This document shows, in pieces, positions 6,004 to 21,638 of a stretch of DNA of 24,381 nucleotides. The notes below the pieces were generated by a model. The model ran no database searches, was not told where the DNA came from, and saw only the letters and a program-made list of their open reading frames with translations. This DNA comes from a virus. Position 1 is the first letter of the stretch. Each line of letters opens with the position of its first letter. Position numbers and translations under genes: made by a program. The stretch spans positions 1 through 24,381 of IMG/VR virus record IMGVR_UViG_3300020281_000125; one strand, given 5' to 3'.

Positions 6004-6801
6004 ATGAAGAGATTGATATATCAAGTTTATACTGGTAAAAAATCGAAGCTGTATGATCACTGTACAGCTTCGGTTAAAGCATATGCTGATAAAATTTCTG
6101 TAGATTATATCGTACAAACAATCCCCAAAATGATGATTAAACCTGACGTATTTGCAACAAATCGTAGTAAAGAGTCATATGAAAAATATGGAGGATTCTT
6201 ACCAATTTATGAAAAAGAAAATGCACTTGACTATTTTGATAGGTATGACCAAATTTGTATTATTGATGCTGATATCTGGGTGCGTCCTGAAACAGTATCA
6301 AACATCTTCGATGAACTGGACAATATCAGTGGAACCACCGAGTTTGCTGGAGTTGTGGAAAGAATGGCGCCAATCCTCCCGTGGTACAAACAAAAATTAG
6401 TAGGATATACTCGAATGCAGTATTCAAACCTTAAAGATGTTGACTGGTGGTGGAATGAAGATGGTGCTCTATTCTATAACATGGGTCTTATGCTTATGGA
6501 TAAACAAATTACTAAATACTTAAGAGGTCAAACTGGAAAGCAATTTATTCAACGTCCGGAGTTTAAAGATTTTGTTGATGGCCAAGGTGCATGGAAATGG
6601 AGTACAGACCAAACGCTGTTAAACTATTGGGTTAAAAAAGAAAAAATGATACAAAAATATCTTGACTGGAAATGGAATGCTCTTTATACTGCAATACCAA
6701 ATGAAAAAATAAAAGAAGCATATTTCGTACATTTCTTTCTAAAAGATAAATTACCAAATGGTGGCGAAAATGTTGATGAATTAATGGAGATAGTGAAATG
6801 A
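6004..6801 (+). CDS. GT8-like glycosyltransferase
   Basis: 265 residues; AAGGAT upstream. A GT-A fold is suggested by YDQICIIDADIWVRPE, with the metal/nucleotide DxD motif (DAD), and by FYNMGLMLMDK, the GT8-type acceptor-side motif. A Trp-rich region (DVDWWWNEDG) and WSTDQTLLNYW follow, and the end VHFFLKDK carries the expected late His. It likely transfers a sugar from a nucleotide donor to a phage or host glycan. First gene of an overlapping cluster; its stop overlaps the next ATG. Confidence 0.8.
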   Translation: MKRLIYQVYTGKKSKLYDHCTASVKAYADKISVDYIVQTIPKMMIKPDVFATNRSKESYEKYGGFLPIYEKENALDYFDRYDQICIIDADIWVRPETVSNIFDELDNISGTTEFAGVVERMAPILPWYKQKLVGYTRMQYSNLKDVDWWWNEDGALFYNMGLMLMDKQITKYLRGQTGKQFIQRPEFKDFVDGQGAWKWSTDQTLLNYWVKKEKMIQKYLDWKWNALYTAIPNEKIKEAYFVHFFLKDKLPNGGENVDELMEIVK

Positions 6802-7142
6802 AAGTAGAAATAGAAGTGAGTGTTGGAGATTATTTAGATAGACTTTCCATTTTGGAAATTAAAAAACTTAAAGGTCTTGATGTTTCAAAAGAAATGGCAG
6901 CATATCATCATAGATTAATTAACCTTGATGTAGGTTATGATTTTTATTTAAATATAATAAAATCAATTAACCTTCAACTGTGGGACTTGGAAGATATTAA
7001 AAGAAAAAAACTTGAAAGATATTCGAAGAAAGAAAGCGATATTGCATTATTAATAACTCAACTTAATGACTTAAGACATGAAACAAAAAAGAGAATTGAT
7101 GCTTATTTTGGTTCAGATTTTACAGAAAAGAAAAGCCATTGA
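6798..7142 (+). CDS. DUF6165-like protein
   Basis: 114 residues starting in the ATGA overlap with the previous gene. MKVEIEVSVGDYLDRLSILEIKKLK, then LWDLEDIKRKK and the terminal EKKSH match a small helical family (DUF6165, name from memory) found in surface-polysaccharide loci of bacteria and phages. No catalytic residues are evident; it may act as an adaptor or regulator of the neighbouring glycosyltransferases. Confidence 0.7.
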   Translation: MKVEIEVSVGDYLDRLSILEIKKLKGLDVSKEMAAYHHRLINLDVGYDFYLNIIKSINLQLWDLEDIKRKKLERYSKKESDIALLITQLNDLRHETKKRIDAYFGSDFTEKKSH

Positions 7143-7909
7143 AACATATAGCACTAAGATCAAAGAGTGTTAGAAGCGGTGATAGACCATATACCACACC
7201 AGGGTTAGGTGACAGATCTCATAGCTTATTGCTTGCATATCAATACGGTAAAGCTCATGATACACCAGTAACAATACATTTAACTGATGATAAGTGGAGT
7301 GTAGCTGGTGGTAAGATTTCAGATAAAAAGAAAAAATCATGGGTTGAACTCTTAGGTTTATTTCCAACTGATTCGATCTATATTGAAACACATCCAGTTG
7401 AAAATCTAACAGAAGTTGAATGGATAAAGTATCTTAAATCAAAAGGATTTGATGCAAAAATATATTACTATAAAGACACTGCACATATGCATCCAAATGA
7501 AACTAAAGTTGGAATTGAGATGTCTCAGTATTTAGAAAAGTTACCAAAACTAAAACCAGTGGTTAAGAACGGTTGGTTTCCAGACGAATTTATTACAGCA
7601 CAGTGGGATTCAACAGATCCAAGAAGAAGATTATCAAAAAAAGTTATAAGAGAAATCGAAGACAAATATGAATGTATAGTTTTAAAAGTTGGTGGTGAAG
7701 GCCAAGGACAACTTAAAACTTCAATACCTCATATTGGTTTAGCAATGTCTTTGGCAAAGTGTCATATTGGTAGTGACTCCGGAATGATGCATATTGCACA
7801 ATTATATAAGGACTATGAAGACATACATATATATGATACAGATGGCTCATACAAATCTCATCATTTAATAAGAGCAATTAATAATGGAAGTAAATATTTT
7901 AAGGTATAA
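7139..7909 (+). CDS. GT9-like (heptosyltransferase-fold) glycosyltransferase
   Basis: 256 residues, starting with TTG 7139 inside the previous stop; no better start is available. The C-terminal half carries the GT-B/GT9 donor-site pattern: VLKVGGEGQG, then SIPHIGLAMSLAKCHIGSDSGMMHIAQLY, where the DSGxMHIA motif marks the family of LPS heptosyltransferases. The N-terminus has a Gly-rich GLGDRSHSLLLAYQYG loop. Shorter than full LPS heptosyltransferases (~350), so the N-domain is reduced. Probably acts in cytosolic glycan assembly. Confidence 0.75.
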   Translation: MKHIALRSKSVRSGDRPYTTPGLGDRSHSLLLAYQYGKAHDTPVTIHLTDDKWSVAGGKISDKKKKSWVELLGLFPTDSIYIETHPVENLTEVEWIKYLKSKGFDAKIYYYKDTAHMHPNETKVGIEMSQYLEKLPKLKPVVKNGWFPDEFITAQWDSTDPRRRLSKKVIREIEDKYECIVLKVGGEGQGQLKTSIPHIGLAMSLAKCHIGSDSGMMHIAQLYKDYEDIHIYDTDGSYKSHHLIRAINNGSKYFKV

Positions 7910-7914
7910 CTATC

Positions 7915-8535
7915 ATGATGGCAACTCATACAAATAAAGACTCAAGACACATAATGCACGTAATTAAACCTGACTCTATAGGCGCAGAGATTGGAGTTTG
8001 GATGGGTAATACCTCAACACAGTTTCTAAAAAAAGGTCTTAAAAAGTTTTATATGGTTGATGCATATTCTGTAGAACCTTACAAAGAAAATACAGAAATG
8101 TCTTACCAAGAATATCTGGCAAAATATCAGCCAATTACTGGAGAGATTGCAGAAGCAGGATTTCAAAAGTTTTATGATAGAGTTTATAATGAAATTAAAG
8201 AAAGATTTAGGACTGTACCAGAAGCCGAAATATGTAGAATGACTTCAGATGAATGGTTTGAACAATTTATGGCAGCAAAAGGACATGGTAATGATGAGAT
8301 GCTTGATTGGATTTATATTGATGGTGATCATTCATATGAAGGCTGTTTAAAAGATTTGGAGAATGCACTTAATGTTGTACGACAAGGTGGATTAATTTTA
8401 GGTGATGACTATGGATGGCCGAATGCAAAATGGTTTAAACCCGGTGTAACAAAAGCTGTTGATGAATTTATAAATAAACATAACTTAACTAAAATGCTTA
8501 GACATGGCGAAACACAATACGAGATAAGAATATGA
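7915..8535 (+). CDS. Class I SAM-dependent methyltransferase
   Basis: 206 residues (ATG 7915 or 7918). The Rossmann methyltransferase motifs are clear: SAM-binding GAEIGVWMGNTS (residues ~23-34), acidic post-strand-2 VDAYS, and DWIYIDGDHSYEGCLKDLE followed by GGLILGDDYG, which is the Methyltransf_24/TylF-like arrangement with a metal-binding Asp-His. Such enzymes O-methylate sugars. Between a glycosyltransferase and the RuBisCO-like gene, a sugar-modifying role is likely. Its stop overlaps the next ATG. Confidence 0.85.
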   Translation: MMATHTNKDSRHIMHVIKPDSIGAEIGVWMGNTSTQFLKKGLKKFYMVDAYSVEPYKENTEMSYQEYLAKYQPITGEIAEAGFQKFYDRVYNEIKERFRTVPEAEICRMTSDEWFEQFMAAKGHGNDEMLDWIYIDGDHSYEGCLKDLENALNVVRQGGLILGDDYGWPNAKWFKPGVTKAVDEFINKHNLTKMLRHGETQYEIRI

Positions 8536-9677
8536 GTAATACAAGTCCATTTCCTGATCTACCAGTCACCAACACATGGCAGCCGCCTGAGGTAACTGAA
8601 CCAATAAAAAGGTACACTGTCACATACGAAGTTGATGGTCCAGATATTCCAAAGATTGCACATGAAATTGCAATAGGTCAAAGTATTGGTAATCCTAATA
8701 TAAGATCGGAAATAGAAAACTCTCCAAACATAAAAGATTATGCAGCAAATATAGAAAGCATAGATGGCAACATAGTTAAAATAAGTTTTAATAGAAATGC
8801 TTTTATTTGGCCTAATGTAAATCAACTCATGTGTATTATTATGGGAGGTCATACTGACATACTAGGAGTTGATAGATGTAGAGTACTAGATATTGATATT
8901 GAAATCAAGACAGATGGACCTGTTTTAGGTATGTCAGGTTGGAAAGATAGATTAGATGCTCATAATCGACCACTATTTGGTGCTATAATAAAACCAAAGT
9001 CCGGTTTAAATATGGAACAATACATGTCCATAGTTAAAGACATGGTCTACGGTGGTGCAGATTTTATTAAAGAAGATGAAATCATGGCACATAATTTATA
9101 CTTACCACTTGAAAAAAGAGTAGAGGCTGTTGAGCACTTAAAGAATATATCAGGCTGGAAAGGTTTCTTTGCGTACTGTATAAATGCGGATCCTATGGAA
9201 TTAATAGCTAATATTAAAAAGATTTATTATCATACTTGCACACCAAACGTTATTGGTGGCTGTCATATTAATTTTTGGTCTGGATTAGGTGCATATACAT
9301 CAGCAAGAGGATTCGATATTGCAACACACTACCAACGTTCAGGTATTAGAATATTAACTGATCCAAGTAACAAATATTCTTTAGCTTGGCCAGTGTTAGT
9401 GAAACTTGGCTGTATGGCAGGAGTTGACAGTATGCATGTTGGTATGTTAGGCGGATACTATCCAGAAGGTGAAAGTGAAGAAGAAACATTAGAAGCAATT
9501 AAAATATGTCAGAAATATGATGTGATTCCCTCATTAAGTTGTGGTATGAATCCAGTCCTTGCAAGAGAAATAAAAGAAAGAATAGGTAATAACTGGATGG
9601 CATCAGTTGGAGGATGGCTACATACAGGTGATAGCCTAATTAAAAAAGTAAAAGAGATGAGTGAAAGTTTGAATTAA
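8532..9677 (+). CDS. RuBisCO-like protein (form IV-type large-subunit homologue)
   Basis: 381 residues. The RuBisCO large-chain barrel is recognisable: FGAIIKPKSGL (Lys154 and Lys156, equal to spinach K175/K177), GGADFIKEDE (Lys180, Asp182, Glu183, equal to carbamylated K201 and metal ligands D203/E204), DSMHVGML (His302, equal to H327), PSLSCGMNP (Ser336, equal to S379) and SVGGWLH (phosphate-loop Gly pair). Missing are loop-6 Lys334 (Tyr309 here), the H294/R295 pair (region reads LTDPSN) and N123 (Gly in MGGHTD). True carboxylase activity is therefore unlikely; an enolase, isomerase or decarboxylase acting on a sugar phosphate fits known RuBisCO-like proteins. It overlaps its neighbours by ATGA/TAATGA, so it belongs to the glycan operon. 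Shorter than RuBisCO (~470). Confidence 0.9.
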   Translation: MSNTSPFPDLPVTNTWQPPEVTEPIKRYTVTYEVDGPDIPKIAHEIAIGQSIGNPNIRSEIENSPNIKDYAANIESIDGNIVKISFNRNAFIWPNVNQLMCIIMGGHTDILGVDRCRVLDIDIEIKTDGPVLGMSGWKDRLDAHNRPLFGAIIKPKSGLNMEQYMSIVKDMVYGGADFIKEDEIMAHNLYLPLEKRVEAVEHLKNISGWKGFFAYCINADPMELIANIKKIYYHTCTPNVIGGCHINFWSGLGAYTSARGFDIATHYQRSGIRILTDPSNKYSLAWPVLVKLGCMAGVDSMHVGMLGGYYPEGESEEETLEAIKICQKYDVIPSLSCGMNPVLAREIKERIGNNWMASVGGWLHTGDSLIKKVKEMSESLN

Positions 9678-10408
9678 TGAAATTAATTATGCCGATGGCA
9701 GGAAATGGCCAGCGTTTTTTTGATGATGGATACGACTTACCTAAACCTTTAATAGACATAAATGGTAAACCTATGTTTAAGAGAGTTATTGATAACTTGC
9801 ACTTAGACAATGTTAATCCTTGGTTTATAATTAGGCAAGATCATATTGATGACTATGAAATTGATAAAAGAATACGTGAATATTATCCAGATGCACACAT
9901 AATAATAACTCCAAGTCTTACTGAAGGTGCAGCTTGCACAGTAAGATTAGCAACAAATTTATTTGGTGGTGAAGAAATGATGGTTGCAAACTGTGATCAA
10001 CTTATGGTTTGGAATCATAAAGAATTTTATAAAAAAATACAAACTGGTTTATACCCCGGTGGATTAATACCAGTATTCTTACCTGATCATAACGAACCAA
10101 TACACAGTTATGTTGAATTAGATAATTATAATAATTTACTTCAAGTTAAAGAAAAAGAAATAATTGGACCACTTGCTACAGTAGGTGTATATTATTTCGT
10201 AGATGAAGTTGATTTTATAAGAGCACATAATAAACAAAAAGATGCTAATGATAGAGTAAATAATGAGTTCTACTTAGCTCCTGTTTACAACTACCTTGAA
10301 GAAAATGTTGGAGTTTTTGAAATAGAAAAAATGATAGGTATAGGAACACCACAAGAGCTTAATGCTTTAAAGAATAGTGAGTGGTGGGATAGATTGGATA
10401 GTTTATAA
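9677..10408 (+). CDS. Sugar nucleotidyltransferase (NTP_transferase family)
   Basis: 243 residues. Residues 2-30 hold the nucleotide-binding signature MPMAGNGQRFF...LPKPLIDINGKPM (G-x-G-x-RF followed by KPL). A metal-site Asp is seen in VANCDQLMVW, and NNEFYLAPVYN and MIGIGTPQEL match sugar-phosphate nucleotidyltransferases that activate a sugar 1-phosphate to NDP-sugar. It directly follows the RuBisCO-like gene (shared A of TAATGA), so it is a candidate for activating whatever sugar phosphate that protein makes. This link is inferred from position. Confidence 0.88.
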   Translation: MKLIMPMAGNGQRFFDDGYDLPKPLIDINGKPMFKRVIDNLHLDNVNPWFIIRQDHIDDYEIDKRIREYYPDAHIIITPSLTEGAACTVRLATNLFGGEEMMVANCDQLMVWNHKEFYKKIQTGLYPGGLIPVFLPDHNEPIHSYVELDNYNNLLQVKEKEIIGPLATVGVYYFVDEVDFIRAHNKQKDANDRVNNEFYLAPVYNYLEENVGVFEIEKMIGIGTPQELNALKNSEWWDRLDSL

Positions 10409-11139
10409 TGAAAGCTGCGATTTGTATATCTGGTGTTGCCAGAGGTAATGTTAAAAGAAATGTTGGTCATTTACAGAAAGCATTTCCTGATATTCCAATA
10501 TTTTATTCTTCATGGAATGAAACAAAAAATAATATATCAGAAAAATATAATTCATCATATTATCCAGAACCACAAATGCACTATAATCCATGGTGTGAGT
10601 GTGTAACTGATAATCCTCATCCAAAATATCACGCATATAAAAAAGAATTTATTAACAAGACTGGAATATCTCATCAAGGTAAGTTATTAAATGCTACAAA
10701 ACAATTAATCGCTCATGCATACCAATTAGATGATCTACCTGAAGAATATGATATGATTATTAGAACTAGGTGGGACACTATCGTATCAGATCGTGCAGAC
10801 TATACTAATTATTTAAAAGATTCTTATGAAAAAAATATGGCTATAGGATTTGCCATAAGAGGTGGAAGATGGATTTATTTAAATAAATTTAAAGATATAG
10901 AACATGTTTATATTACTGAAACTACAGATCAAATGTGGAGTCGTGACTGGGCATGGTGGTTAAATGATAACTTAATATTCCATCCAAGAAAATTGTATGA
11001 TACAAAAAAAGTATTTCAATTACATGAAGAAAAAAAATTATGGCCTGCTGAATATGGATGGTACCAGATATTAAGTATCGATGATAATCATCATTGTGTG
11101 TACGGTGGTGCAGCTCTTGAAAAGTTTTCATATGCTTAA
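10408..11139 (+). CDS. Putative glycosyltransferase, RTRWD type
   Basis: 243 residues; starts in the TAATG overlap with the nucleotidyltransferase gene. N-terminus AAICISGVARG resembles the first strand of surface-glycan transferases, and YDMIIRTRWDTIVSD around residues 114-128 is the R-x-R-x-D pattern used as donor-site motif in WavE-type and capsule transferases. The C-terminal part (WYQILSIDDNHHCVYGGAALEKF) is aromatic and His-rich. The specific substrate cannot be told. Confidence 0.65.
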   Translation: MKAAICISGVARGNVKRNVGHLQKAFPDIPIFYSSWNETKNNISEKYNSSYYPEPQMHYNPWCECVTDNPHPKYHAYKKEFINKTGISHQGKLLNATKQLIAHAYQLDDLPEEYDMIIRTRWDTIVSDRADYTNYLKDSYEKNMAIGFAIRGGRWIYLNKFKDIEHVYITETTDQMWSRDWAWWLNDNLIFHPRKLYDTKKVFQLHEEKKLWPAEYGWYQILSIDDNHHCVYGGAALEKFSYA

Positions 11140-11557
11140 TACATTACTTAAAAGGTATAAATCAAGACGTGAAATTTATGCTGACTTTTACGAAAAAGAA
11201 TTACTTCAGTATCGTCATAAACCTATTAATTTATTACAAGTAGGTGTTGAAAATAGTATTCCAGCATTACATAAGTTTCTACTTAGAGCAAACATTTACT
11301 GTATTGATAAATTTGATAGAGTTGAGCCAAAAAGATTTAAATTTTTAGAAAATACAAGAGTATTTTGGTCAAGATGTGACATTGATGACGAGTATAAAAT
11401 TAAAGAAATGATGACAGAAATTTGGAATAAACCAAGATTTGATATTATAATAGATAATAGTAGTAATTTTGCAAATACTAGATTTAATTTTTTAAAAAAA
11501 TATTGTATAGGTAATTATTATATTGAAGAAGGTGATGAAGTTAGGATAGCAATATGA
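11132..11557 (+). CDS. Reduced methyltransferase-like protein
   Basis: 141 residues from ATG 11132, overlapping the previous gene by 8 nt. The sequence follows a TylF/cephalosporin-hydroxylase-like Rossmann order: YADFYEKELLQYRHKPINLLQVGVE (motif I region), IYCIDKFD and FDIIIDNSSNFANTRFNFL. In active relatives the last motif reads IDDGSH; here the second Asp and the His are lost (DNSSN), and the SAM loop lacks the usual Gly-x-Gly. It is also short, so it may be inactive or a divergent partner. Confidence 0.55.
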   Translation: MLNTLLKRYKSRREIYADFYEKELLQYRHKPINLLQVGVENSIPALHKFLLRANIYCIDKFDRVEPKRFKFLENTRVFWSRCDIDDEYKIKEMMTEIWNKPRFDIIIDNSSNFANTRFNFLKKYCIGNYYIEEGDEVRIAI

Positions 11558-12252
11558 AAGCATTCGCGATAGTTGTACCAGATAATAAGACTTCAATGGC
11601 CGGATTTGCTGAGCTTCAAGACAGTTATGATAAGTATGGTCATAAAGACGGCTTAGAAATGCATGAAGCCGTACCGGTCGACAAGGTAGAACTAATAGCA
11701 GGTGGTAATGGTCTGACTTGGAACTATCCATGGGAAGGAAAAGTATCAGATATAAAGAGTGGATTAATTAAATCTGCTTACCCAACAGCAGATAAACGTA
11801 AACGTATTTCTTGTTTTATGAGTCACTGGTATCTTTGGCAAAAGTGTGTAAAACTTGATGAAATGATATTAATTTTGGAACATGATTCTCGTCTTATAAA
11901 AAAATTACCAGCAGACAGCACGTTTGCAAGAGCACCATACGATATCATTGGCATTAATGATCCATCAATGGCAACACGTAAATCAAAAGTATATCACGAC
12001 ATGATATTAGAAAGAGAAGACTTTTTTCAACCTGTACCAAGAATAGATGAGTTTAATATTCCACAAGGTCTGGCTGGTAATTCAGCTTATGTAATAAAAC
12101 CAGAAGGTGCACAGCACATGCTTAACTTAGCAAATGAATACGGTATGTGGCCAAATGACGCATTAATGTGTTATCAGCTTGTGCCAAAACTTGGTGTAAC
12201 ACGTAACTTCTATACAAGAATACAAGGATTGAGGTCAACGACAACACTATGA
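11554..12252 (+). CDS. GT25-like glycosyltransferase (first of a tandem pair)
   Basis: 232 residues, ATGA overlap with the previous gene. The GT25 (LPS galactosyltransferase) core is visible: RISCFMSHWYLWQKCVKLDEMILILEHDSRL, with the conserved CxxSH...W pattern and the ExD donor motif (EHD), and then AGNSAYVIKPEGAQHML. These enzymes add hexoses to surface glycans. The next gene carries the same motifs, so a local duplication followed by divergence is likely. Confidence 0.85.
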   Translation: MKAFAIVVPDNKTSMAGFAELQDSYDKYGHKDGLEMHEAVPVDKVELIAGGNGLTWNYPWEGKVSDIKSGLIKSAYPTADKRKRISCFMSHWYLWQKCVKLDEMILILEHDSRLIKKLPADSTFARAPYDIIGINDPSMATRKSKVYHDMILEREDFFQPVPRIDEFNIPQGLAGNSAYVIKPEGAQHMLNLANEYGMWPNDALMCYQLVPKLGVTRNFYTRIQGLRSTTTL

Positions 12253-12890
12253 AGATGTATGTAATAACAATAATGGAAAACGAGAGATCTGTACAAGTTG
12301 CTGACAGATGTGTTAAGAGTGGATTGGTCTTTGGTTATAAGATTAAAAAACATAAAGCCTATAGTCCACAAAACTGTGATGTATATGAAGAGTTAAAAAA
12401 GCTTAAATATCCAGAAGCGCTATTTCATGAAAAATATAGTAGACCAGAAAATTGTATAGCAGGTTTTTTAAGTCATCATAGTTTATGGCAGAAATGTGTA
12501 AGATCTAAAGAACCAATAGTAATATTTGAGCATGATGCAGTATTAGTTGGTGACATACCACAGATGATGATGTTTGATATACTAAACTTAGGTAAACCAT
12601 CATACGGTAAGTTTAACACTCCATCGTATATAGGTTACGGATCATTAGTTTCAAAACCATATTTCCCTGGTGCACACGCATATAGATTAACTCCAAAAGG
12701 TGCACAACAACTAATTGATGAATGTGTATTCAGCGCAGGTCCTACTGACATATACATACACTCTAGTAAATTTACTTTAGGTGAGTACTATCCTTGGCCA
12801 GCAGAAGCAAGAGATAGTTTTACAACAATACAACAAAAAGCAGGTTGCTACGCAAAGCATAATTATGGCGAATCCTACGAAATTATATGA
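12249..12890 (+). CDS. GT25-like glycosyltransferase (second of a tandem pair)
   Basis: 213 residues, ATGA overlap. CIAGFLSHHSLWQKCVRSKEPIVIFEHDAVLVGD mirrors the motif block of the preceding gene, including SHxxLWQKCV and EHD, and GAHAYRLTPKGAQQLIDE matches its Ala-Tyr...GAQ segment. DIYIHSSKF near the end is the expected Asp-containing acceptor segment. Probably adds a different sugar of the same glycan. The stop lies inside the start of the next gene. Confidence 0.85.
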   Translation: MKMYVITIMENERSVQVADRCVKSGLVFGYKIKKHKAYSPQNCDVYEELKKLKYPEALFHEKYSRPENCIAGFLSHHSLWQKCVRSKEPIVIFEHDAVLVGDIPQMMMFDILNLGKPSYGKFNTPSYIGYGSLVSKPYFPGAHAYRLTPKGAQQLIDECVFSAGPTDIYIHSSKFTLGEYYPWPAEARDSFTTIQQKAGCYAKHNYGESYEII

Positions 12891-15392: not shown

Positions 15393-15581
15393 ATGGCAAA
15401 AGTTAAGAGTTTAATGATGGATTTACAAGATGAGTTCTATTATAAGGCTGATAAAATCATGAAAGATTGTGAAGATCTTAGTGATGCTAAGACAAAAATC
15501 GAAGCATTAAGAGCTAAAGAGTATAATTGGATGGATTCCAATCTTGTTGAAAACGAGGTCGAGGACTACTACTATGCTTAA
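15393..15581 (+). CDS. Small acidic phage protein, unknown function
   Basis: 62 residues behind a strong site (AGAAGGAG). Helical and acidic (MDLQDEFYYKADKIMKDCEDL, then KIEALRAKEYNWM) ending in VEDYYYA. The end overlaps the SleB-like gene by 8 nt, so it may be translationally coupled to a lysis enzyme. Family not recognised. Confidence 0.7.
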   Translation: MAKVKSLMMDLQDEFYYKADKIMKDCEDLSDAKTKIEALRAKEYNWMDSNLVENEVEDYYYA

Positions 15582-16137
15582 GAAATTTTATCTTAGCATG
15601 GTACTGGCATTTGTTGCTTTTGCCGGTTTAACATTTTGTAGTCCACCTGCACCAGCACTGGAACTTAAAAATATAATAAGACAAGATCAAGCAAAGTGTC
15701 TTGCAGATAATATGTACTTTGAAGCAAGAAATCAATCTTGGCGTGGCATTGTTGCGGTTGGAATGGTAACACTAAATCGTGTTAGTGATAAGAGATTTCC
15801 AGAAATATTATGTGAAGTCGTTAAACAAGGACCGACAAGTAAATGGTGGCTTGAACAAAAAGGCAAAGTAGTTCCTATACGTCATAAATGTCAGTTTAGC
15901 TGGTACTGTGATGGTAAGAGTGATAAGATACCTGACTTTGATATTGAGTTATATAATGCCATATTTGCAAAAGCAACACGTATGATTGGTCAATATAATT
16001 GGGGAACTTTAGATGATATGACAAAAGGTTCTACACACTATCATGCAGACTATGTATATCCTGAGTGGAGACAAACAAAAACAAAAATGATAACAATAGA
16101 TAATCATATATTTTATAAATGGGAAATCAATGAGTAA
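15574..16137 (+). CDS. SleB-type cell-wall hydrolase with signal peptide (endolysin candidate)
   Basis: 187 residues from ATG 15574, chosen because it opens a signal peptide: MLKKFYLSMVLAFVAFAGL, with likely cleavage near APA-LEL. The mature part has the Hydrolase_2/SleB pattern: CLADNMYFEARNQSWRGIVAVG (catalytic Glu in YFEAR), VTLNRVSDKRFPEILCEVV and KCQFSWYCDGKSD. SleB-type enzymes are cell-wall lytic amidases or transglycosylases. In this phage it is the best endolysin candidate, exported by the host Sec system. Small membrane proteins follow. Confidence 0.9.
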   Translation: MLKKFYLSMVLAFVAFAGLTFCSPPAPALELKNIIRQDQAKCLADNMYFEARNQSWRGIVAVGMVTLNRVSDKRFPEILCEVVKQGPTSKWWLEQKGKVVPIRHKCQFSWYCDGKSDKIPDFDIELYNAIFAKATRMIGQYNWGTLDDMTKGSTHYHADYVYPEWRQTKTKMITIDNHIFYKWEINE

Positions 16138-20151: not shown

Positions 20152-20973
20152 ATGACGCAATTAATATCCCCAAAAAAGTTTACAGACACAGTTGGCCTTT
20201 TAAGGTCATTTTTTTTAGATAAAGGTTTTTTAGAAGTTCACACTCAAAATAGGTTGTCAATCTTGGCAGCTTGCGAGGATCCATTTAATGTGGCAACTTA
20301 CAAGTATGCGGGTGAAGTTTGGCCATTACCACAAACCGGACAGATGTGGCTAGAACACGAATTACTTAGTAAACCTGACTCAAAAGGTTTCTTTTGTGTA
20401 TCAACTTCATATAGACAAGAACCTAACGCAATCCCTGGAAGACACGACATTATATTTCCAATGTTTGAATTTGAAATGCCCGGTGACATATATGATCTTT
20501 CAAAAATGGAATACGAGTTAGTAGAATACTTAGGATTTAAAAAGCCAGAAGAAAAGACTTACTCAAAATGGCAAGAGTATTTTAGTTTAAACCAAGACCA
20601 AGAGCTAGTAGCAGAGCATGAAGCTAAAATGTATAATGATTTTAGTACTGCAATGATTACAGACTTTCCAGAGTTTACAAGTCCATTTTGGAATATGAGT
20701 CGTTACGAAGATGGTATAAGATCAAAAAAGATTGACGTAATATTAGGTGGTATGGAAACTATTGGATCAGCAGAAAGATCCACAAATAAAGATCAAATGA
20801 GAGATACATTTCATACGATTACTAATGGTGCATACTCTAAATTATTATTTGATTTATTTGGTAAAGAACGAGTTGAAGCAGAATTAGAAGAGTTCTTAAA
20901 GTTTGATTTCTTTCCACGAGTTGGTGGTGGGATCGGTATGACAAGAATGATTGCAGCTTTGGATCCTATGTAA
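20152..20973 (+). CDS. Class IIb aminoacyl-tRNA synthetase catalytic domain (Asn/Asp/Lys type)
   Basis: 273 residues; AAGGAAAG before ATG. Class II motifs are clear: motif 2 with FFCVSTSYRQEPNA (Arg88, Glu90) and GRHDIIFPMFEFEMPG; ILGGMETIGSAERS (residues 197-210), matching the EIIGGSQRE segment of AsnRS/AspRS; and motif 3 RVGGGIGMTRMIAAL (Arg265). The OB-fold anticodon-binding domain is absent, so the protein is the catalytic core only. Such stand-alone cores occur as AsnA, archaeal asparagine synthetase paralogues and tRNA-modifying enzymes. The adjoining Asn-anticodon tRNA favours aminoacylation, but amide synthesis is possible. Confidence 0.85.
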   Translation: MTQLISPKKFTDTVGLLRSFFLDKGFLEVHTQNRLSILAACEDPFNVATYKYAGEVWPLPQTGQMWLEHELLSKPDSKGFFCVSTSYRQEPNAIPGRHDIIFPMFEFEMPGDIYDLSKMEYELVEYLGFKKPEEKTYSKWQEYFSLNQDQELVAEHEAKMYNDFSTAMITDFPEFTSPFWNMSRYEDGIRSKKIDVILGGMETIGSAERSTNKDQMRDTFHTITNGAYSKLLFDLFGKERVEAELEEFLKFDFFPRVGGGIGMTRMIAALDPM

Positions 20974-20979
20974 AAGTTT

Positions 20980-21066
20980 TGCAGGGTGGCGGAACGGTAG
21001 ACGCGGTAGGTTGTTTCCCTATTGTCTGTGCGAGACGTGGTGGTTCGAATCCACCCCCTGCAGCCA
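20980..21066 (+). tRNA. tRNA with Asn anticodon GUU but a long variable arm (class II, Leu-like body)
   Basis: Acceptor stem TGCAGGG/CCCTGCA, T8-G9, D arm GCG/CGC with Leu-like loop (GAACGGTAGA), anticodon stem GTAGG/CCTAT with loop TTGTTTC (anticodon GTT at 21013-21015), variable arm of 16 nt with GTCT/AGAC stem, T arm GGTGG-TTCGAAT-CCACC, G73 and encoded CCA. Normal tRNA-Asn is class I with a short variable loop. U1-A72 and G73 are shared with tRNA-Asn, while D arm and variable arm are of the Leu type. Position 37 is U, which is very rare. It begins 6 nt after the stop of the synthetase-like gene. Confidence 0.9.
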
Positions 21067-21076
21067 AAAATAATCC

Positions 21077-21105
21077 TTTACAAATGTGTATTTATGTAGT
21101 ATAAT
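21077..21105 (+). promoter_or_regulatory. Sigma70-like promoter for tmRNA (TTTACA, 17 bp, TATAAT)
   Basis: -35 TTTACA 21077-21082, 17 bp, consensus -10 TATAAT 21100-21105, about 30 bases before the tmRNA acceptor piece. Confidence 0.87.
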
Positions 21106-21134
21106 ATATATTATATAACGATGAAACAAAGTAA

Positions 21135-21380
21135 AAAATTTACTGGACTCGGGGGCGGTACCCGACAGCTCCACCAAAAACACTCGATTATCGCGAGTAG
21201 TTTTGATGGGGCTGAAATAGGATCGACAGGAATTGAATAGCAATGTGGAGTTATCCGGATGTGAGCTCGGTTAATGCGAACAAAACTCTAAATGCAAACG
21301 ATAATTTTGCATCTCAGGAGTTAGCTCAAGCAGCGTAATTCCTATGCGCTAGGAGAGAGCGTGGAAACAGAATCTCTCCA
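21135..21380 (+). ncRNA. ssrA: Permuted two-piece tmRNA (alphaproteobacterial type)
   Basis: The order is inverted relative to one-piece tmRNA. First the acceptor piece: T-arm-like TCGGG-GGCGGTA-CCCGA (21149-21165), CAGCTCC, A73 and CCA ending at 21176. Then a spacer (21177-21207) with stem AAAACACTCG/CGAGT-A-GTTTT. Then the coding piece from GGGGCTGAAATAGGATCGAC (21208), whose GGGGCTG pairs with CAGCTCC. The tag reads ANDNFASQELAQAA (21294-21335) and stops at TAA; ANDNFA is typical of alphaproteobacterial tags. A 3' hairpin GGAGAGA/TCTCTCC closes the piece near 21379. It rescues stalled ribosomes and marks products for proteolysis. Outer ends are estimated. Confidence 0.93.
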
Positions 21381-21404
21381 CCAACACACACACAGGAGGA
21401 CAGT

Positions 21405-21638
21405 ATGTCTAAAAATGCATATGAGATTCGTCTCGAAACTTTAAGGATGGCCAAAGAAATGGCTGACACACAATTTTGTGTAGAACAAGATATAATGTAT
21501 AGAATGATTGATCAGGCGGTTGAAAAACGTCAAGACATTGAGGATGTAATCAAAGAACACTCACCAATGATGTATCAACCGGTTGATTTAATCGAAACTG
21601 CTAATAAGCTTTATGCTTATGTAGGCGAAAAGCAATAG
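21405..21638 (+). CDS. Conserved small phage protein
   Basis: 77 residues; strong AGGAGGAC before ATG. It begins SKNAYEIRLETLRMAKEMAD, a start I recognise from marine T4-like phages, and is helical and acidic. The site lies just behind the tmRNA 3' hairpin, so it may share the tmRNA promoter and depend on processing of that transcript. Function unknown. Confidence 0.75.
   Translation: MSKNAYEIRLETLRMAKEMADTQFCVEQDIMYRMIDQAVEKRQDIEDVIKEHSPMMYQPVDLIETANKLYAYVGEKQ

Follow-up and report, generated by a model that had tools for sequence, protein, structure and literature searches.

Few RuBisCO-like proteins (RLPs) have a known function. MtnW (TIGR03332) is a DK-MTP-1-P enolase and OiaX (NF042437) a 3-oxo-isoapionate-4-phosphate decarboxylase; an isomerase of R. 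rubrum is another such protein. We know of no earlier RuBisCO-fold enzyme of a glycan-building pathway, and the group described here, which we call clade X, would be the first if our reading is true. The accessible part of the 2007 ocean survey describes 65 RuBisCO homologues outside the known forms (PMC1821046), and the name IV-GOS appears in the accessible part of a further paper (PMC10173188). Those marine homologues, later IV-GOS, fall outside the known forms as clade X does; the likeness is one of description only, and they may belong to the same branch. A landfill study from 2025 tabulates viral rbcL as a carbon-fixation auxiliary gene. According to the available sections of that study the gene clusters with RbcL-like proteins, differs from an earlier viral RbcL, and its function also occurs in random IMG/VR viruses (PMC12607003). 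It is a viral RbcL-like gene like ours, matched by description only, and these sections give it neither a role nor a context of nucleotidyltransferase (NTase) or glycan genes. The initial annotation of our locus held that no role of an RLP in viral glycosylation had been described. This stands in the open-access literature searched, where the viral RbcL-like gene itself is reported and no paper linking an RLP to an NTase or to glycan synthesis was found. The RuBisCO-like superfamily itself is known; distinctive here are the separate RLP branch and its new gene context.

The window, by which we mean the whole stretch of DNA analysed, is a virus record of 24,381 bases. Its RLP frame is open from ATG to TAA, and the antisense strand, in the one frame tested, is rich in stops. 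The product is a RuBisCO homologue of the PF00016 superfamily by score and fold: it reached 78.1 bits (E 8.9e-22) against the Pfam RuBisCO_large cut-off of 30.1, and the top phmmer match in the PDB had an E-value of 2.1e-21. The structure prediction suggested in the initial annotation was run, giving an AF2 model (pLDDT 87.4, pTM 0.86) built from an alignment of 34 sequences. Foldseek matched the model best to the type III RuBisCO 3a13 (E 2e-24, TMq 0.79), VIA-align to 2cwx (Z 38.5, rmsd 2.3, 347 residues). The nearest solved structures were RuBisCOs and RLPs with Z of 36–38.5 over about 340–354 residues, and the Chlorobium RLP (IV-Photo) was among the fold matches.

Table 1. Features of the window, with the evidence for each
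Feature	Coordinates	Strand	Evidence
Conserved protein, possibly glycosyltransferase (by eye)	6004..6801	+	no Pfam match; 35/38 viral loci
Conserved protein, perhaps GT9-like glycosyltransferase	7139..7909	+	PF01075 E 0.11, below cut-off; 24/38 viral loci
Methyltransferase	7915..8535	+	PF13578 3.5e-15; family in 28/38 viral loci
RLP of clade X, 381 aa	8532..9677	+	PF00016, model and fold, own branch, residues
Sugar-phosphate-type NTase, 243 aa	9677..10408	+	PF12804, phrog_3980, 4evw, linkage
Putative GT-A-type glycosyltransferase, 243 aa, conserved after NTase	10408..11139	+	30/38 viral loci
Conserved protein	11081..11557	+	no Pfam match; family in 26/38 viral loci
Glycosyltransferase family 25	11554..12252	+	PF01755 49 bits, cut-off 24
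Glycosyltransferase family 25	12249..12890	+	PF01755 43 bits, cut-off 24
Cell wall hydrolase	15544..16137		PF07486 1.3e-17
Class II tRNA-synthetase-like gene	20152..21429		PF00152; phrog_29758 4.5e-131

The RLP gene overlaps the methyltransferase gene at its start (ATGA), and its stop shares one base with the ATG of the NTase gene (TAATG). The protein encoded after the NTase yielded an AF2 model with a pLDDT of 79.4 and GT-A-like matches (best Z 12.6, rmsd 3.8, 187 residues); nucleotidyltransferases match as well, and we assign it with moderate confidence as a putative GT-A-type glycosyltransferase. Its family matched a SAR11 family weakly (hhalign probability 77, E 2e-5) and gave no match to the neighbour gene in Pacearchaeota. 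With neighbours of this glycan type, the description of the locus in the initial annotation as an RLP inside a viral glycan cluster is borne out. Upstream the window carries a T4-type RNase H, whose C-domain is present, Thy1 and a PDDEXK gene. No gp23-type major capsid protein was found in the 24 kb; one occurs in two of 14 RLP-carrying records. One of these two is a 142 kb contig (JAAXIF010000028.1, locus L057) from a Sphingobacteriales MAG with a viral-type RLP cluster, most likely a phage contig inside a bacterial MAG. Further downstream in the window, the N-terminus of the cell wall hydrolase looks signal-like by eye. The tRNA-synthetase-like gene is 66–68% identical to 'tRNA ligase' genes of the Prochlorococcus phages P-SSM2 and P-SSM7 and is directly followed by a tRNA-Asn(GTT) and a permuted tmRNA.

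We compared the window RLP with the curated families. It remained far below the cut-offs of form III RuBisCO (TIGR03326, 105.2 bits against 497.45), PRK04208 (97.3 against 438), PRK13475 (58.8 against 489), MtnW (48.6 against 513.6) and OiaX (79 against 700). In a tree built from 65 of the 81 rows, clade X forms one side of a branch with 100/100 support, apart from every labelled group, the labelled groups being without IV-GOS, IV-DeepYkr, IV-AMC and IV-Aful sequences. MtnW and the OiaX-related rows form separate branches, each with 100/100. The first tree took 15 of the 20 cellular loci, a later tree with wider viral sampling left out 17 of 72 rows, and one locus with a split frame (L054) was kept out of the trees. 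A placement in a known functional clade such as MtnW had been named beforehand as a finding that would weaken the glycan proposal; scores and tree place the protein outside all of them. Members of clade X are also set off by a gap in profile score, exceeding 360 bits when all other matches stayed at or below 250 in searches of 247, 236 and 398 genomes.

The active site was compared over 63 distinct clade X rows including the window, eight duplicates having been removed; reference groups were labelled via NCBIfam cut-offs for the rows tested. All 63 keep K175, K177, K201, D203, E204, S379 and G381, and all replace E60 by G, T65 by N, N123 by G, H294 by Q, K334 by Y and G380 by C. In the window the kept residues K175, K177, K201, D203 and E204 correspond to K154, K156, K180, D182 and E183, H327 and S379 to H302 and S336, and the replacements are G49, N54, G106, Q268, Y309 and C337 in the order given above. 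Position 295 is K in 38, R in 18 and S in 7 of the rows, position 327 H in 53 and Q in 10. K177 is found among the reference groups in forms I–III only; MtnW has V, OiaX A, and other RLPs C, S, N or A. Signatures of the clade are GQS(I/V)GNP, QKSG or QRSG, and SCG, together with Q294, Y334 and C380, all present in the window RLP. The residue reading of the initial annotation largely holds across the clade, as to both the conserved KPK lysines, carbamate lysine, Asp/Glu metal ligands and equivalents of H327 and S379, and the lost loop-6 lysine, H294 and N123. It erred in counting R295 as lost, the window having R269 and 56 of 63 members K or R, and the changes at E60, T65 and G380 come in addition to those it named.

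These residues and scores bear on what the protein could do. The closest HMM and fold are those of form III RuBisCO (3a13, 2cwx), with which clade X shares K175, K177, K201, D203 and E204 as well as H327 and S379. A gene for carbon metabolism, serving the host by true RuBisCO activity or methionine salvage, might be read from this closeness, but it is barely credible given that E60, T65, N123, H294 and K334 are replaced in 63 of 63 rows, that all scores lie far under the curated cut-offs and that the branch is a separate one. On the same scores, replaced residues and branch a true RuBisCO of forms I–III was ruled out. MtnW shares the superfamily, the metal triad and, as an enolase, the chemistry that we propose for clade X, but it has V177, P295, L327 and S334 where clade X has K177, mostly R or K295, mostly H327, and Y334. 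It was ruled out on score, residues and tree. The same holds for OiaX, which like clade X has G at position 123, but carries A177, H294 and K334. Azospirillum oleiclasticum possesses three genes of the RuBisCO superfamily; one of them belongs to clade X, and another reaches 461 of the 700 bits required by the OiaX model.

A reaction at C–C bonds, in which the RLP as a decarboxylase, aldolase-like enzyme or transcarboxylase would assemble the activated sugar's carbon skeleton instead of isomerising it, has a precedent in OiaX, by its NCBIfam name a decarboxylase of this superfamily, and would suit the retention of K177 and S379, as in carboxylases. H294 and K334, however, are kept in OiaX and its relatives and replaced in every clade X row, and the clade stands apart from OiaX in the tree; we regard this reaction as rather unlikely. 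The many active-site changes could also be taken for a non-catalytic RLP that uses the fold as a scaffold, decoy or structural element. This we judge highly improbable: the predicted carbamate lysine and metal ligands (K201, D203 and E204) and both KPK lysines are invariant, and strong purifying selection on the viral RLPs is indicated by dN/dS values of 0.03–0.14 in all ten pairs tested, at a dS near saturation.

The most consistent feature of clade X loci is the neighbouring NTase. The window NTase scored 27.4 bits on PF12804, just above the cut-off of 27, and 8.3e-43 on phrog_3980. The best solved relative of the family profile is 4evw (2.9e-34), named a nucleoside-diphosphate-sugar pyrophosphorylase, followed by proteins of the 6-deoxy-mannoheptose pathway. 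The initial annotation had proposed that this NTase activates the product of the RLP, and had named the absence of the link from related genomes as a finding that would weaken the glycan proposal; the link is present. Of 84 viral records 78 have an NTase linked to the RLP, and the remaining six are cut contigs. In detail the positives are 33 of 38 viral loci (window and Sphingobacteriales contig included), of which the other five end inside the RLP, and 45 of 46 further viral records, where the miss (L281) is a cut copy of another record (L279). Among cellular loci 18 of 20 are positive; one miss is a 3.1 kb contig (L071) and the other ends in the RLP (L077). The linked NTase is always on the RLP strand, at a distance of up to 400 bp in 67 of the 78 viral and all 18 cellular positives. 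Within 1.5 kb it was found in 12 of 14 clade X loci versus none of 109 other RuBisCO or RLP loci. These counts are to be read with the composition of the samples: many loci are close relatives and not independent, the NTases of two loci were detected by six-frame search, and the training set of the linkage HMMs held most positives of the 14-locus, 38 viral and 20 cellular counts. The 109 negative loci, the 46 wider viral loci, the NTases of L086 and L088 and the cupin and GDPD-like genes of L064 and L069 lay outside it.

In the NTase tree the RLP-linked sequences sit on several supported branches, at least three of them in viruses, and the RLP has therefore been paired with this NTase family more than once. 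A viral NTase (L051) clusters with those of SAR11 and the HAD-fused ones (99/98), and the RLP of a near-identical contig (L050) groups with other phages. The pairing is probably functional. In six SAR11 loci (L059, L061, L065–L067 and L070) two NTase paralogues flank the RLP; the motifs GxGxRF and KP, otherwise usual, have been lost from the upstream one, which seems degenerate.

Beyond the NTase, the wider viral loci frequently contain a small cupin (35 of 46) and a GDPD-like protein (32 of 46; 13 of 20 cellular loci). On clustering of the neighbours in these 46 loci only RLP, NTase, cupin and GDPD-like protein were broadly shared, the next families reaching 17 and 13 loci. Full sets of cupin, NTase and GDPD-like genes were found in Elusimicrobiota (L064), Azospirillum (L069), Bacteroidota (L063) and an alphaproteobacterium (L062). 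On the contig of the last, RmlB, NTP_transferase, DegT and Polysacc_synt come next, together a set for surface glycans. A search of the window and of two related contigs (69 and 47 kb) revealed neither cupin nor GDPD-like gene; the phages of this group have a reduced cassette of RLP, NTase and putative glycosyltransferase. Legionella loci have RLP and NTase without cupin or GDPD-like gene, and no glycan genes were seen beside the pair there.

The cupin and the GDPD-like protein match solved structures weakly, the latter against GDPD enzymes, of which it keeps the motifs HRG, ExD and GHD. Its frequency and conserved motifs would fit a cassette for an activated polyol or phospho-alcohol destined for a teichoic-like or phosphodiester-linked polymer, in which the GDPD-like protein would trim or recycle phosphodiesters and the RLP reshape a small phospho-ketone. 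The NTase, however, resembles sugar-1-phosphate enzymes, and the group of the window has no GDPD-like gene; we consider this product doubtful. Decoration of viral DNA with a hypermodified base, in place of a surface glycan, would fit an RLP commoner in viruses than in cells in the searches made, and DNA can be a substrate of such phage glycosyltransferases. The same RLP–NTase pair occurs in cells, though, once beside surface-polysaccharide genes (the alphaproteobacterial contig), and no base-modification gene was recognised nearby, which makes DNA an improbable destination.

In S-CAM9, in B23 and in eight SAR11 genomes the NTase carries a fused HAD domain at its N-terminus; the domain of S-CAM9, the only one scanned, matched the beta-phosphoglucomutase family best. 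All eight HAD-fused SAR11 loci had a GDPD-like gene within the stretch examined and none an RLP within 1.5 kb. These SAR11 data hinted that the RLP substitutes for the HAD domain, an idea given up on finding fusion and RLP together in four of 46 wider viral loci; a separate HAD match occurs in two more. HAD-NTase and GDPD-like genes without RLP were seen in SAR11 and cyanophages (L210–L214, L216–L218; L206, L208), and Synechococcus phage Bellamy (L322) has the NTase, annotated as 'phosphatase', with a cupin and without RLP. Such sets of S-CAM9, B23, Bellamy and SAR11 share the NTase, GDPD-like and cupin families with clade X loci and differ in the missing RLP; they are an unassigned sugar pathway of their own. 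Since the three families thus also occur without it, the RLP represents a single branch within a wider pathway and is not obligatory.

Members of clade X were found in viruses, SAR11, Legionella, Azospirillum, Bacteroidota, Elusimicrobiota, Verrucomicrobiota and DPANN archaea. In the searches made they are common in viruses and rare among cells: three of 247 genomes in the order of a SAR11 genome, two of 236 in the phylum of one cellular locus (L072) and one of 398 in that of Legionella carried one. A scan of IMG/VR with a clade-wide profile returned 302 viral relatives among 465 candidate stretches, and the follow-up rests on the best 80 of the 302. Two RLP queries found no match in 50,697 phage records, three RLPs had none in PHROGs, and no RuBisCO fold was among the 50 BFVD matches listed (best TMq 0.40). 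Terminase was found in seven of 25 wider viral records checked, and the viral nature of most therefore rests on IMG/VR. All viral rows together with four to five SAR11 and Bacteroidota rows form one branch (96/90; SH-aLRT 100 in another tree). The first trees had nested the viruses inside cellular sequences, which was revised when wider viral sampling put these cellular rows inside a mostly viral branch; transfer may therefore have run between phage and cell in either direction.

Taking the evidence together, we give an even chance to the reading that the clade X RLP is a sugar-phosphate enolase or isomerase dependent on metal and carbamate, and that its cassette supplies a glycan with a nucleotide-activated sugar or polyol. 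R295, H327 and S379, which we take to be the P2 phosphate site, are largely kept, and T65, W66, K334 and G404, presumably the P1 site, are replaced; we infer that the substrate has a phosphate at one end only. Q at position 327 in 10 and S at position 295 in 7 of 63 rows weaken this argument. MtnW keeps W66 and G404 and has P295 and L327, roughly the reverse pattern. Under the enolase or isomerase reading the RLP would enolise a ketose phosphorylated at its end (position 5 or 6) and reprotonate it elsewhere, the cupin may isomerise or epimerise, and a HAD mutase or phosphatase, own or host, would shift or remove the phosphate. The NTase would add the nucleotide and glycosyltransferases transfer the activated sugar. 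A mutase moving the terminal phosphate to C1 could link an RLP binding a terminal phosphate to an NTase in need of a sugar-1-phosphate. The linkage part of the original glycan proposal is thus strongly supported by the NTase counts, while its further parts, in which the RLP would act before the NTase and on the same molecule and the product would go to a surface glycan and not to DNA or lipid, remain proposals.

More broadly, it seems possible, if a little short of probable, that clade X adds another functional class to the RuBisCO superfamily, that of a phosphosugar enolase or isomerase with a biosynthetic role, making the precursor of an undescribed nucleotide sugar. Phages would be the main vehicle of its spread, as a cassette of RLP, cupin, NTase and GDPD-like protein that also moved between them and marine bacteria such as SAR11. 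With an invariant active site of its own, at least 302 viral stretches in one scan and a fixed set of partners, the clade turns a RuBisCO-fold reaction in glycan synthesis into a testable question, and work on it could uncover a new nucleotide sugar in phages and SAR11. For metagenomics it is a warning not to take every viral 'rbcL' label as a sign of carbon fixation. The near-constant place of the gene next to one for sugar activation suggests that the RuBisCO fold has been reused to build unusual surface sugars.
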